13,240 nucleotides of DNA, taken from NCBI GenBank assembly GCA_030613915.1, contig JAUWKY010000015.1, positions 1-13,240 of the forward strand. Reading direction: 5' to 3'. The notes under the pieces are model-generated. The model was not told where the DNA came from, searched no databases, and was given only the letters and a program-made list of their open reading frames with translations. Made by a program: the position numbers and the translations under genes. The DNA comes from Syntrophobacterales bacterium. GTDB taxonomy: Bacteria; Desulfobacterota; Syntrophobacteria; BM002. Shown here one piece after another: positions 1 through 5,463 of this stretch (positions are counted from its first letter, which is position 1; each line of letters begins with the position of its first letter).

Positions 1-378
1 GCACTTCGGGGTACTACGGCCTCAGTGCTCGAGGAACACCTCATCGGGCCCAATGCCCTTGCCTTTTGCTACGATGACGAGCTGACGCCGGCGCAGGTGG
101 TGCTGGAATATGCCAAGGGCAATGACAAGCTGGAGGTCAAGGCGGGGGTACTTGCTGGCAGGCTGATGCTTCAGGAGGACATGAAAAAGGTTGTCACCTT
201 GCCCTCCAAAGAAGTAATGCAGGCTCAACTTCTTGGGATTATGGTATCGCTGCCCTCGAAGTTGCTGGCTGTCATGAATGCTGTGCCCAGCGATTTTGTC
301 GGGGTGCTCGCAGCCGCACCGAGGGATCTTCTGGGAGTGCTCAAGGCCATCGAGCAGAAGGGTACACCAGCATCATAA
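1..378 (+). CDS. rplJ: 50S ribosomal protein L10, 3' part (5' end outside window)
   Basis: The frame is open from base 1 and ends at TAA 376-378, giving about 125 C-terminal residues; L10 is usually 165-180 residues, so roughly the first 50 are missing. Recognisable L10 features are the central segment VLEEHLIGPNALAFCYDD followed by the KGNDKLEVKAGVLAGRLM stretch, then a C-terminal helix (LLGVLKAIEQKG) of the kind that carries L7/L12 dimers. L10 anchors the L7/L12 stalk on 23S rRNA at the GTPase-associated centre and in many bacteria represses its own operon by binding the mRNA leader. That leader would lie upstream of this window. rplL follows after 56 nt, the standard rplJ-rplL pairing. A GTG at 25 lies inside the protein and is not a credible start. 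Identity is from recalled family sequence and gene order. Confidence 0.95.
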   Translation, partial: ALRGTTASVLEEHLIGPNALAFCYDDELTPAQVVLEYAKGNDKLEVKAGVLAGRLMLQEDMKKVVTLPSKEVMQAQLLGIMVSLPSKLLAVMNAVPSDFVGVLAAAPRDLLGVLKAIEQKGTPAS

Positions 379-434
379 TTTGAAAAAAACGTGATTGTGC
401 GAACAGATATTAAGAACGATAAAGGAGTAGAAAC

Positions 435-839
435 ATGGCGAAGGCGAAACTGACCAAAGACGATATCAAAGAATACATCAAAAACATGCCGGTGTTTGAG
501 CTGGCCGAGTTAGTAAAAGAGTTGGAAGAAGAACTGGGAGTCTCCGCAGCGGCACCTATGGCTGCAATGCCCATGGCTATGCCGGCAGGAGTTGCGGCGG
601 CTGGTGCTGAGGCTGCTGAGGAAGAAAAGACCGAGTTTGATGTGGTGATCACTGAAGTGGGTGACAAGAAAATCCAGGTGATAAAAACTGTACGCGCCGT
701 CACCAGCCTGGGTCTGAAGGAGGCCAAGGCTTTGGTGGATGAGCTGCCAGGAACAGTGAAAGAGGGTGTGTCCCAAGATGAAGCCGACGATGTGGTCAAG
801 CAGTTGGAAGAAGCTGGCGCCACCGTCGAAGTGAAGTAG
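435..839 (+). CDS. rplL: 50S ribosomal protein L7/L12
   Basis: Encodes 134 residues, slightly longer than the usual 120-130. The start ATG has a good Shine-Dalgarno (AAAGGAG, 421-427) 7 nt upstream. The N-terminal dimerisation domain is about residues 1-36 ([32 protein letters not shown] in two pieces). A flexible Ala/Pro/Met hinge covers about 37-66, with [12 protein letters not shown] as its core. The C-terminal factor-binding domain starts near [10 protein letters not shown] and includes [13 protein letters not shown], the surface that recruits EF-G, EF-Tu and IF2. The protein forms the mobile stalk of the large subunit, bound to L10 encoded just upstream. The extra length lies mostly in the hinge, which is unusually methionine-rich (four Met in about 12 residues). 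It ends in TAG and is followed by a long structured spacer before rpoB. Confidence 0.97.
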
Positions 840-1086
840 CCTGCACCTGGTTGAATAAAAGGGTGGACCACGCTCGTGAGAGCGAATCGCTTTTGCGTTC
901 ACCTCAATACTTTCGAGCCATCCAAGGATGACCGAGGGATATCGCGGATGGCCGGATACCTGAACTTGGTGGTTTCCGTCCCTGTTCTCTTTGACGAGGG
1001 GCCGGAAGCCCCCTCCGTCATCGCTTTTGGGTCAGCTATCGTGACCCAAAGCCGGGTGATGGAGCCAGCGCCAAAGGTGAGAAAAT
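840..1086 (+). promoter_or_regulatory. rplL-rpoB spacer with three hairpins
   Basis: This 247-nt stretch holds no credible gene. Three stem-loops are visible: CGCTC/GAGCG at 871-884 closing a GTGA (GNRA-type) tetraloop; a GC-rich hairpin at 993-1019 (GGGGC/GCCCC core, loop CGGAA, GACG/CGTC at the base with two bulges); and TTTGGGTCA/TGACCCAAA (1026-1034 with 1042-1050) closing a 7-nt loop. None is followed by a T-run, so they do not look like intrinsic terminators. In E. coli the rplL-rpoB spacer contains a partial attenuator and an RNase III processing site that set RNA polymerase subunit output relative to ribosomal proteins. An analogous role here is inference from position and structure. 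A weak SD-like AAAGGTGAG lies just before the rpoB ATG. Confidence 0.5.
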
Positions 1087-4000
1087 ATGGCAACCTCATT
1101 GGCCAATGACTATCGAGTGCGGAAGAGTTTTGGCAAGATCAAACACATAGTCGAGATCCCAAACCTTATAGAGATGCAGAGACAGTCCTATGAACGGTTT
1201 CTGCAACAGGAATTGGATCCCGATGAACGCGTCGACAAAGGTCTGCAGGGCGTCTTTAAAGGGGTTTTTCCCATTCGCGACTTTAGTGGGACTGCCTCTC
1301 TCGAGTTTGTCCGCTACAGCATCGGCAGAGTCAAGTATGAGGTGGAAGAGTGTTTGCAGCGGGGGATGACGTACGAGGCACCAATCAAGATCACGGTGCG
1401 GCTCGTGGTCTACGATGTGGACAAGGACAGTGGCGCCAAGCACATTCGGGATATTAAAGAGCAGGAGGTTTATTTCGGTACCATACCGTTGATGACCAAC
1501 AACGGTACCTTTATTGTCAACGGCACTGAACGGGTGGTGGTTAGTCAGTTGCACCGTTCTCCAGGTATTTTCTTCGACCACGACAAAGGCAAGACCCATT
1601 CAAGCGGCAAGCTTCTCTACTCTGCCAGGATCATCCCCTTACGCGGCTCTTGGATCGATATGGAATTCGACCCCAAAGACATCCTCCACGTGCGCATTGA
1701 TCGACGACGCAAGTTTCCCGTCACCATCCTGCTCAAGGCTTTGGGCTACAGCGCTGCTGAGCTACTCGATTATTTTTACCAGTCCGAACGCGTTTATCTC
1801 AGAAAAGATGGGGTGGCCAAGCTGCTGGATGATGAATTTCTGGCAGGTACGCGTTCACCGGTGGATATCACTCACCCGAAAAGTGGAAAAGTTCTGGCCA
1901 AGAAAGGAAGAAAGCTGGGAGTCAAGCTTATCCAGCAGCTCAAAGAGTCGAAGATTGCCGAAATTCCATTTCCGGATGAGAACCTGGTGGGTCGAGTGGT
2001 CGGGCGTGATGTGGTGGATGAGAACACCGGAGAGGTACTTATCCAGTGCAATGAAGAGCTCACCGAGGAACATTTGGTTACCTTGCGGGCCCAGTCCATA
2101 GAGTCTTTGGACTTGCTCCATATGGAAGGCGCCGACGTGAGTCCGTCTTTTCGAAATACCCTTGCTATTGACAAGGTTGAAGATTCAGAGACGGCGATTC
2201 TGGAAATCTATCGGAAACTACGGCCCAGCAATCCCCCCACCCCTGAGGTGGCAGCCGAGTTCTTCAAGAATCTCTTCTTTAGCCCTGATCACTATGACCT
2301 TTCCGAGGTGGGGCGGCTGAAGCTGAATCAACAGCTGGGAACCGAGGAGTTGCCGCTCAGCCACCGCCCCCTCACTGAGGATGACATTTTCAGGGCTGTA
2401 AAACGCCTCGTCAAGACCAAGGACACCCAGGGGGCAGTGGACGACATCGATAACCTGGGCAATCGGCGGGTGCGTGCGGTTGGGGAACTTCTGGAAAACC
2501 AGTATCGGATTGGGCTGGTCAGGATGGAGCGGGCTATCAAGGAACGCATGAGTCTTCAAGAGATTGAGACCCTGATGCCGCATGATCTTATCAATGCCAA
2601 GCCGGTATCAGCAGTGGTCAAAGAGTTTTTTGGCACCAGCCAACTGAGCCAGTTCATGGACCAGACCAATCCTTTGAGTGAGATTACCCACAAGCGGAGA
2701 CTAAGCGCCCTCGGACCCGGAGGCCTTACGCGAGAGCGGGCTGGCTTCGAGGTGCGTGACGTCCATCCCACTCACTACGGGCGCATATGTCCCATTGAAA
2801 CCCCGGAAGGTCCCAATATCGGTCTGATCGTCTCGTTGAGCACGTACGCCCGGGTGAACAAGTTCGGCTTCATCGAAACTCCTTATCGCGAGGTGGCAGG
2901 TGGCAAAGTGTCCAACAATGTTGCCTATCTGAGCGCCATGGATGAGAAAAAACAAGCCTTTGCCCAGGCCAATGCTCCTCTGGACAGCAAGAGCAAATTC
3001 GTCCGGGACCAAGTTTCTTGTCGGCTGGAGGGCGAGTTTCTGATGGTCCGTCCCGACCAGGTGGAATTCATGGACGTGAGTCCGAATCAGTTGGTGAGCG
3101 TGGCGGCTTCCCTCATCCCCTTCCTGGAGAACGATGATGCTAACCGGGCGCTGATGGGCTCAAACATGCAACGTCAAGCTGTACCTCTTTTGAAGGCCAA
3201 AGCTCCGTTAGTGGGTACCGGTGTCGAGAAGGTTGTGGCCCAGGACTCAGGGGTTGCAATCATTGCCCGGCGCGATGGTATAGTGGAAGATGTAGATGCC
3301 TCTCGTGTTGTGGTCAGGGCCTCCCAGGGTGACGGCGAAGACCAGTCGCTCGCCTCCGCAGTGGATATCTATAAGATCACCAAGTTCCAGCGCTCTAACC
3401 AGAACACCTGTTTCAACCAAAAGCCTATCGTTCGTCCTGGACAAAGGGTGAGCAATGGGCAGATCATTGCCGATGGTCCCTCCACTGAAATGGGAGAACT
3501 CGCCCTCGGCCGGAACATCACTGTTGCCTTTATGAGTTGGGGTTGATACATCTTCGAGCATTCCATCGTGGTGATGGAGCGAGTGGTCAAAGAGGAGATC
3601 TTCACCTCGATCCACATCGAGGAGTTCGAGTTGGTTGCCCGGGATACCAAGCTGGGCAAAGAGGAGATCACCCGTGACATTCCCAACATCGGTGAGGAGG
3701 CGTTAGGACACCTCGACGAGAGCGGAATTATTAGGGTTGGCGCCACAATCCAAACCGGCGACATTCTGGTGGGCAAGGTAACGCCCAAAGGTGAGACTCA
3801 GCTCACTCCAGAGGAGAAATTGCTCCGGGCTATATTTGGTGAAAAGGCGGGGGATGTGAAAGACACCTCTCTCCGGGTGCCTCCGGGCGTGGAGGGCATT
3901 GTTATTGATGCCAAAGTCTTTTCCCGTAAGGGTGTAGACAAGGATGAACGGACCATATCCATTGAAGACGAGGAAATAGCGCGGTTGCTGAAGGATCAGC

Positions 4001-5202
4001 GTGACGAGATAAAGATAATCAAGAAAAGCGCGTTGAGGAAGCTCGAACGGTTGCTGGCAAAGAAGAAATCGGCCAAACCCGTCAAGGACGTCAAGAAGAC
4101 CTTGATCAAAAAGGGCGGCACTTTTACTGGTGACATCCTTGCCCAATTGGCCCCCGGCCAGTGGATGGATATCGAGGTGCAGGGGAAGGTTGAGGTGACC
4201 GGACAGATTCGAGAAATCTGGGAGAACTACCACGAACAGATCGAACTGGTGCAAATGGTCTTCGCAGACAAAATCGCCAGACTCAAGAAGGGCGACGAGT
4301 TGCCCCCAGGTGTGATCAAAATGGTCAAGGTTTACCTGGCGGTTAAGCGCAAGCTTTCGGTGGGGGACAAGATGGCCGGTCGGCACGGTAATAAGGGGGT
4401 GGTAAGCCGAGTTCTGCCCGAAGAGGACTTGCCCTACTTTGCCGAAGGCACCCCGGTGGATATTGTCCTGAATCCCCTGGGCGTACCTTCGCGCATGAAT
4501 GTGGGTCAGGTCTTGGAGACCCACCTGGGCTGGGCCGCCAAAGGGATTGGTGAACAACTGGTTCAGTTACTGGAGGAATACAAGAGTCAGGAGACTATAA
4601 AGGCGAAGCTCCGGCGACTTTACTCCAAGCAGGAATTCAAGGAGTACTTTGACGAGGCGGATGAAACCGAACTCAAGAGCCTGATTCCCCACTACCGAGA
4701 GGGCTTCCATGTGGCCAGTCCAGTATTTGATGGCGCCGCGGAGGAAGAGATTCGGGAGTTTCTGAAAGAAGGAGGCCTTCCAGAGTTGGGACAGGCGACT
4801 CTGTATGACGGCCGCAATGGTAAGCCATTCGACAGCAAAGTCACTGTGGGCATTATGTACATGATGAAGTTGCACCACTTGGTGGACGACAAGCTGCACG
4901 CACGCTCCATTGGTCCGTACTCACTGGTAACCCAGCAGCCATTGGGTGGTAAAGCGCAGTTTGGTGGGCAACGTTTGGGTGAGATGGAAGTCTGGGCAAT
5001 GGAGGCTTATGGTGCTGCCTATGCCTTGCAGGAGTTCTTGACGGTGAAATCCGATGATGTGGCCGGCAGGACTCGTATGTACGAAAAAATAGTCAAGGGC
5101 GACAATACGCTCGAGGCTGGGTTGCCGGAATCTTTCAACGTACTGGTGAAGGAGCTCCAGGCCCTGGGTTTGGATGTCCGCTTGTTGGAAGACGCCGACT
5201 AG
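1087..5202 (+). CDS. rpoB: RNA polymerase beta subunit, full length but with an in-frame TGA at codon 820
   Basis: One continuous frame of 1371 codons plus TAG, normal for a proteobacterial beta subunit, broken only by TGA at 3544-3546. Upstream are the [17 protein letters not shown] segment and the rifampicin region ([19 protein letters not shown] then [20 protein letters not shown]). Positions equivalent to E. coli Q513, D516, H526 and S531 are the wild-type residues, predicting rifampicin sensitivity. Downstream are [20 protein letters not shown], an insertion like beta SI2, the active-site [13 protein letters not shown] (lysines 1095 and 1103, counting the TGA as a residue) and the C-terminal [20 protein letters not shown] clamp region. 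The TGA falls where family members have Gly in MPWGGYNFED. Nearby residues are also odd: MSWG, stop, YIFEH. Conservation on both sides argues for a functional gene. A GTG at 3568 or ATG at 3574 could be proposed as a restart, but neither has a Shine-Dalgarno. Error, pseudogene and recoding remain open. Confidence 0.9.
3544..3546 (+). other. In-frame TGA codon inside rpoB
   Basis: Codon 820 counted from the ATG at 1087 reads TGA, between TGG GGT and TAC ATC. Family alignment from memory puts glycine here (E. coli beta G809 in MPWNGYNFED), and GGA to TGA is one base change. The frame continues without shift into clearly homologous sequence, so this is a nonsense codon and not a frameshift. No other in-frame TGA occurs in the window's genes, and fusA uses TGA as its real stop. 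Confidence 0.95.
3561..3579 (+). promoter_or_regulatory. Stem-loop 3' of the rpoB TGA, SECIS-like in geometry (speculative)
   Basis: TTCCATC (3561-3567) pairs with GATGGAG (3573-3579): six Watson-Crick pairs plus one outer U-G pair, closing a 5-nt loop GTGGT (3568-3572). The apical loop starts 21 nt after the TGA. Bacterial SECIS elements sit inside the coding region close behind the UGA, typically with the apical loop about 16-37 nt away and a G within its first two bases, so the geometry is compatible. A short hairpin of this size can also arise by chance, and no selenoprotein RNA polymerase subunit is known to me. Confidence 0.25.
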
Positions 5203-5227
5203 TAAACGGATAGTATGGCAATTTAGT

Positions 5228-5274: not shown

Positions 5275-5463
5275 AAATTCGAAATCCGAATATCGAAATC
5301 CGAAACAATGTTCCAATGCTCAAAACTCAAATGACCAAAACAAAAAATTGCCGTTTTAATCTATATGTTTTGAACATTAAAGAATTCGTATTTTGAATTT
5401 GTTTCGTGCTTCGTGCTTCGAATTTCGGATTTACTTATATTCGATGCACAATATTCGGGTTTG
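5275..5463. repeat. AT-rich imperfect palindromic repeat in the rpoB-rpoC spacer
   Basis: The left arm (about 5275-5308) contains GAAATCCGAATATCG followed by a second AAATCCGAAACA. The right arm (about 5397-5432) contains TGTTTCG, two and a half copies of the 7-mer TTCGTGC, then TTCGAATTTCGGATTT, an imperfect reverse complement of the left arm. The inner parts also mirror one another loosely (AATGCTCAAAAC on the left, GTTTTGAACATT on the right). A further ATATTCGGGTTTGA at 5451-5464 resembles the right end again, so the right boundary is uncertain. Composition is much more AT-rich than the flanking genes. A related partial copy lies before fusA. It has no coding capacity and looks like a dispersed palindromic element that would fold into a long hairpin in the rpoBC transcript. 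Confidence 0.7.

Follow-up and report, generated by a model that had tools for sequence, protein, structure and literature searches.

An in-frame TGA in rpoB of a Syntrophobacterales draft genome lies within a cluster of private substitutions and almost certainly reflects a sequencing or assembly error

The closest described counterpart of the locus analyzed here is the bacterial RNA polymerase beta subunit, RpoB, with its YNFED motif. In Escherichia coli, residues E813 and D814 of the beta subunit are tabulated as Mg2+ binding, changes there are marked as giving slow elongation, and the counterpart change in Rpb2, D837A, is marked as lethal (PMC3533926). The gene studied here is like the bacterial genes in identity, length, and position of the motif. 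It differs in that the motif is preceded by a stop codon and carries isoleucine in place of asparagine and histidine in place of aspartate, whereas near-identical copies of the protein are intact.

Two published studies of interrupted bacterial genes are also relevant. Deshayes et al. (2007, PMC1852416) described a significant share of the interrupted genes in one deposited genome as sequencing errors, and the likeness to the present case is a deposited gene that seems interrupted through errors. That work, as described, concerned a Mycobacterium smegmatis isolate and was checked by resequencing and proteomics, whereas the present case is a substitution cluster in a draft assembly, studied by sequence comparison alone. 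A second study (PMC7918605) interpreted in-frame stops in bacterial genes as frequent read-through, and an in-frame stop is common to both cases. The stops kept there, according to its account, were those shared by orthologues from at least two species, which removed sequencing errors, whereas the stop described here occurs in one genome only.

The rpoB frame and its near-identical copies

The window, meaning the entire stretch of 13,240 nucleotides that was analyzed, spans contig C132 from end to end; the contig belongs to a draft genome (G000) of 2,251,421 bases in 351 contigs. The assembly is 79.18% complete with 0.83% contamination, and we infer that it is a metagenome-assembled genome built from short reads. 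The genes, named by reading their translations, are in the order rplJ (partial), rplL, rpoB, rpoC, rpsL, rpsG, and fusA. The rpoB gene begins at an ATG and encodes 819 amino acids up to the TGA, then continues in the same frame to a TAG at 5200-5202 (Table 1). An earlier note made from the letters of the window had described a frame of 1,371 codons broken once and resuming to the TAG; direct reading of the frame confirmed this, and codon 820 is the sole stop ahead of the final one.

Table 1. Coordinates of features of the rpoB gene in the window
Feature	Positions	Strand	Basis or remark
rpoB, RNA polymerase beta subunit, single frame with one interruption	1087..5202	+	ORFs 1087-3546 and 3568-5202 share the frame
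Codon 337, two adjacent transversions relative to G003, not private	2095..2097	+	Differs from P0001 and P0002
Codon 428, private transversion	2368..2370	+	Differs from P0001 and P0002
Codon 658, private transversion	3058..3060	+	Differs from P0001 and P0002
In-frame TGA, codon 820	3544..3546	+	Gly in 120/120 homologues listed
Eight private substitutions, all transversions, in six codons (820, 822, 825, 828, 830, 837) and one silent site	3544..3609	+	Alignment with relatives
Codon 825, Mg-binding Asp of YNFED, here His	3559..3561	+	E. coli beta D814 by motif position
Apparent restart codons GTG 3568 and ATG 3574	3568..3576	+	Both created by private substitutions

Two proteins of 1,371 amino acids, P0001 (three members, longest contig 7003) and P0002 (longest contig 17045), each showed 99% identity to the N-terminal query, and both carry the intact motif where the window has its altered residues. 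P0001, which is near-identical to the RpoB of the window, matched 48 distinct solved beta-subunit sequences at E values of at most 1e-100. The source field of both proteins holds only "-", a mark also used for the window's own proteins, so that their origin and independence are undocumented; the window as written nonetheless encodes neither of them. Its RpoB shows 12 residue differences from P0001 and 13 from P0002, and each count includes the six codons of the cluster described below. There are 30 residue differences between P0001 and the RpoB of G003, the nearest relative compared, and at 28 of them (the exceptions being 642 and 764) the window has the P0001 state. Both proteins thus apparently come from the same species as the window. 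Further homologues were less similar, namely P0008 (94%, Deltaproteobacteria), P0009 (93%, Syntrophobacteria), and P0010 (93%, Syntrophobacterales). Codons 337, 428, and 658 may be further, scattered errors of the consensus.

A dispersed repeat of about 67 bases was observed in the spacer between rpoB and rpoC, at window positions 5366-5432. It had 25 matches in the draft genome, its own place included, and 55 matches in G003, where 40 of 83 first-look candidates were scored; several of the matches form close inverted pairs. The G003 contig that carries rpoB has a copy at 14144-14210, just past the part aligned to rpsG. The repeat resembles a REP- or MITE-like family of the genus.

A cluster of private substitutions over the YNFED motif

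The TGA does not stand alone. Between positions 3530 and 3620 the window differs from G003 at eight sites (3544, 3551, 3559, 3568, 3575, 3576, 3597, and 3609), every one of them inside a span of 66 bases, while the identity of the two sequences across window positions 1-5205 is 97.6% at the DNA level. The earlier note was correct that the TGA is present, but its high interest came from the premise that nothing else in the motif had changed, and that premise fails.

The density of changes was assessed under two rules. For rpoB, the gene was aligned with its genus and family relatives G001, G002, G003, G005 (partial), G006, G007, G008 (on two contigs), and G009, and a base was called private when it was found in no other row and at least five rows covered the site. 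By this rule there were 23 private sites in 4,119 bases, eight of them within the 66-base cluster, where uniform placement would give 0.37 (Poisson P of about 6e-9 before correction for the choice of place). At the protein level, half of the 12 residues that differ from P0001 lie within 18 of the 1,371 codons, a concentration with a probability of about 2e-6 after multiplication by the number of placements. A stricter rule, under which at least three of G001, G003, G005, and G007 cover a site and all agree, was applied to the whole window and gave 84 private sites among the 11,649 bases covered, and six of these sites lie in the cluster. A 66-base stretch with at least six such sites arose in 39 of 5,000 random placements, so that clustering under the stricter rule is weaker evidence than the test in rpoB alone.

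The type of change was compared as well. Under the stricter rule all six private sites in the cluster are transversions, compared with 29 of 78 elsewhere in the window (Fisher P = 0.004, the 29 having been counted by hand). Within rpoB alone the comparison of 8/8 in the cluster with 10/15 outside it was not significant (P = 0.089). A control contig of the same draft genome, L038, in which at least two relatives cover 13,484 bases, had 87 private sites; transversions make up 16 of these, a lower share than in the window outside the cluster. This contig, one of 351 and scored under a looser rule than the window, contained no 66-base stretch with five or more private sites. Looser private clusters, of three to four sites per 60 bases, were seen in G001 and G007; these contain no stops, and mild clustering therefore occurs without them.

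The changes ignore conservation. Besides the stop at codon 820, they give Ile at 822, His at 825, Val at 828, Met at 830, and Glu at 837, and the eighth site is silent. Among the best 120 of 8,000 homologues scored, the columns at codons 820 (Gly), 822 (Asn), 825 (Asp), 828 (Leu), and 837 (Asp) show no variation, so five of the six altered codons fall on invariant columns, and none of the 120 has the residue of the window at any of them. Column 830 varies in that set: 115 homologues have Ser, 3 have Asn, and 2 have Gly. Judged by its place in the YNFED motif, codon 825 would correspond to D814 of the E. coli beta subunit. The earlier note had put the lost glycine near the second Mg site; the glycine is indeed conserved among the homologues listed, but the metal ligands tabulated in PMC3533926 are the adjoining Glu and Asp. 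One would expect an enzyme with these changes in its motif to be crippled. This one patch accounts for the stop, for the lost metal ligand, and for both apparent restart codons.

Relatives and alternative explanations

We surveyed 55 genomes of the class with a 360-amino-acid stretch over the site, in which codon 820 is query residue 153. Matches were found in 51, with none in G038, G043, G044, and G048, and the sole stop inside any listed match was the TGA of the draft genome itself. The matches of G004, G042, and G045 do not span the site, leaving 47 other genomes that cover codon 820, and none of these has a stop there. One rpoB was found in the draft genome. A single match was likewise found in 28 of 29 other genomes, and in the remaining one, G008, the gene was in two pieces on two contigs.

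One alternative is recoding, in which the UGA would be decoded as selenocysteine or glycine, or simply read through. The lineage probably does use selenocysteine and make selenoproteins, since in the draft genome selA (on C290) and selB (on C189) both scored over their cut-offs, and tRNA-Sec did so in six of eight genus mates. The search of the genome for selenocysteine machinery, which the earlier note had proposed, thus found two of the genes, but it gave no tRNA-Sec over the cut-off in this incomplete, 79% assembly, where the three weak matches were tRNA-Leu, tRNA-Trp, and tRNA-Arg; at this completeness the lack of a match carries little weight. The site itself gives negative evidence. All 120 homologues listed have Gly at codon 820, the 47 other class genomes that cover it have no stop there, the Rfam scan gave no match at gathering score anywhere in the window, and the RNA of positions 3535-3600 folds like its own shuffles (z = -0.38). 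A SECIS-type hairpin after the UGA was recognized neither by that scan nor by folding, which with general models is a weak negative. A general code in which UGA means glycine, already considered unlikely in the earlier note, is opposed by the presence of release factor RF2 (prfB, over its cut-off in the draft genome) and by the TGA that ends fusA in the window. Codons 822 and 825 are altered as well, and with His in place of the metal-binding Asp the product of read-through would lack a metal ligand whatever residue were inserted at 820. With these neighboring catalytic residues changed and no stop in any of the 47 class genomes, recoding or read-through fails as an explanation, and we regard it as vanishingly improbable. 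A beta subunit split into two polypeptides is rejected, as the earlier note had expected: no AGGAGG-like site is visible by eye just upstream of either apparent restart codon, both of these codons exist only through private changes and are by-products of the cluster, and the class survey found no stop in the matches of the 47 other genomes that cover the site.

The remaining alternatives take the letters as real and the gene as damaged. A decaying second rpoB, or a strain variant, might have been assembled in place of the working copy, and an assembly that is 79% complete could be missing another rpoB. However, the look for a second copy that the earlier note had recommended found none, the surrounding genes lie in order from the partial rplJ and rplL through rpoC, rpsL, rpsG, and fusA, and the damage is confined mostly to 66 bases, whereas decay would spread along the gene; we consider this explanation very unlikely. 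It is extremely improbable, too, that a real subpopulation keeps an inactive rpoB with the rewritten motif (stop, Asn to Ile, and Asp to His) beside an intact copy that the assembly did not capture. A natural multibase mutation in a dying or relic lineage, by template switch, hypermutation, or gene conversion from a distant rpoB, has in its favor that single events can produce clustered changes and that positions 3530-3620 fold better than the same region of the relative (-26.4 versus -22.3 kcal/mol). Yet when the changed sites were filled at random 3,000 times, 9% of the sequences folded equally well, so a hairpin bias is not convincing. The best inverted template accounts for seven of the eight sites at one of 1,100 axes but agrees with the window at only 23 of 80 bases in all; the best direct template accounts for seven of eight at one of 2,999 shifts. 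These fits are taken as chance, and a templated origin by template switch, fold-back, or nearby copying was rejected. An imperfect inverted repeat at 3587-3610 also led nowhere as a source of the changes, and 12- to 19-mers spanning two changes did not recur in the 72,543 bases of the draft genome that were examined. The 120 homologues listed, none of which shares the window's residues at the five invariant columns, offer no donor for gene conversion. Given also the expected effect of the altered motif on the enzyme, we hold a natural clustered mutation to be extremely unlikely.

A very probable clustered error in an ordinary rpoB

We prefer to read the TGA as one element of a clustered error, made in base calling or in assembly, in an ordinary rpoB. 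From the comparisons presented here it is very probable that the rpoB of the living organism is intact. Error was the simplest of the options in the earlier note, and it is strongly supported by the clustering, the all-transversion spectrum, the invariant residues hit, the near-identical proteins with an intact motif, and the single copy of the gene. The changes of the cluster are absent from P0001 and P0002, with the reservation that the independence of these copies is undocumented.

As to how such an error may have arisen, the TGA would result if a stretch of bases had been miscalled, or a read end wrongly assembled, in this fragmented draft genome. A low-quality read tail could have set the consensus over a thinly covered stretch. 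The read in question was perhaps on the minus strand, for the changes become denser from 3609 toward 3544, a pattern that a reverse read might show at its end; this gradient is suggestive only.

Assembly trouble in this conserved gene is not peculiar to the draft genome studied here, and in three of its eight genus mates the same part of rpoB contains contig ends or a gap. In G008 the gene is split across two contigs that overlap at 3525-3846, and in G004 it lies on two contigs with ends at about 3498 and 4323. In G005 a run of 100 N follows the equivalent of window position 3688, and the search of that genome did not return the downstream part of rpoB. The coincidence in place with the trouble in these sister assemblies is no proof of cause. 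The run of N in G005 (C1, L029 8773-8872) cuts rpoB in a genome that consists of a single contig and is listed as 62% complete.

If the window were true to the organism, an RpoB without the Mg-binding aspartate would contradict the known role of the YNFED motif. Rather than new biology, the TGA almost certainly reflects an error of sequencing or assembly. When a draft genome shows what looks like a lone in-frame stop in an essential gene, the substitutions around it should be weighed as well; here the cluster, the transversion-only spectrum, and the intact near-identical copies indicate an error even without the reads.
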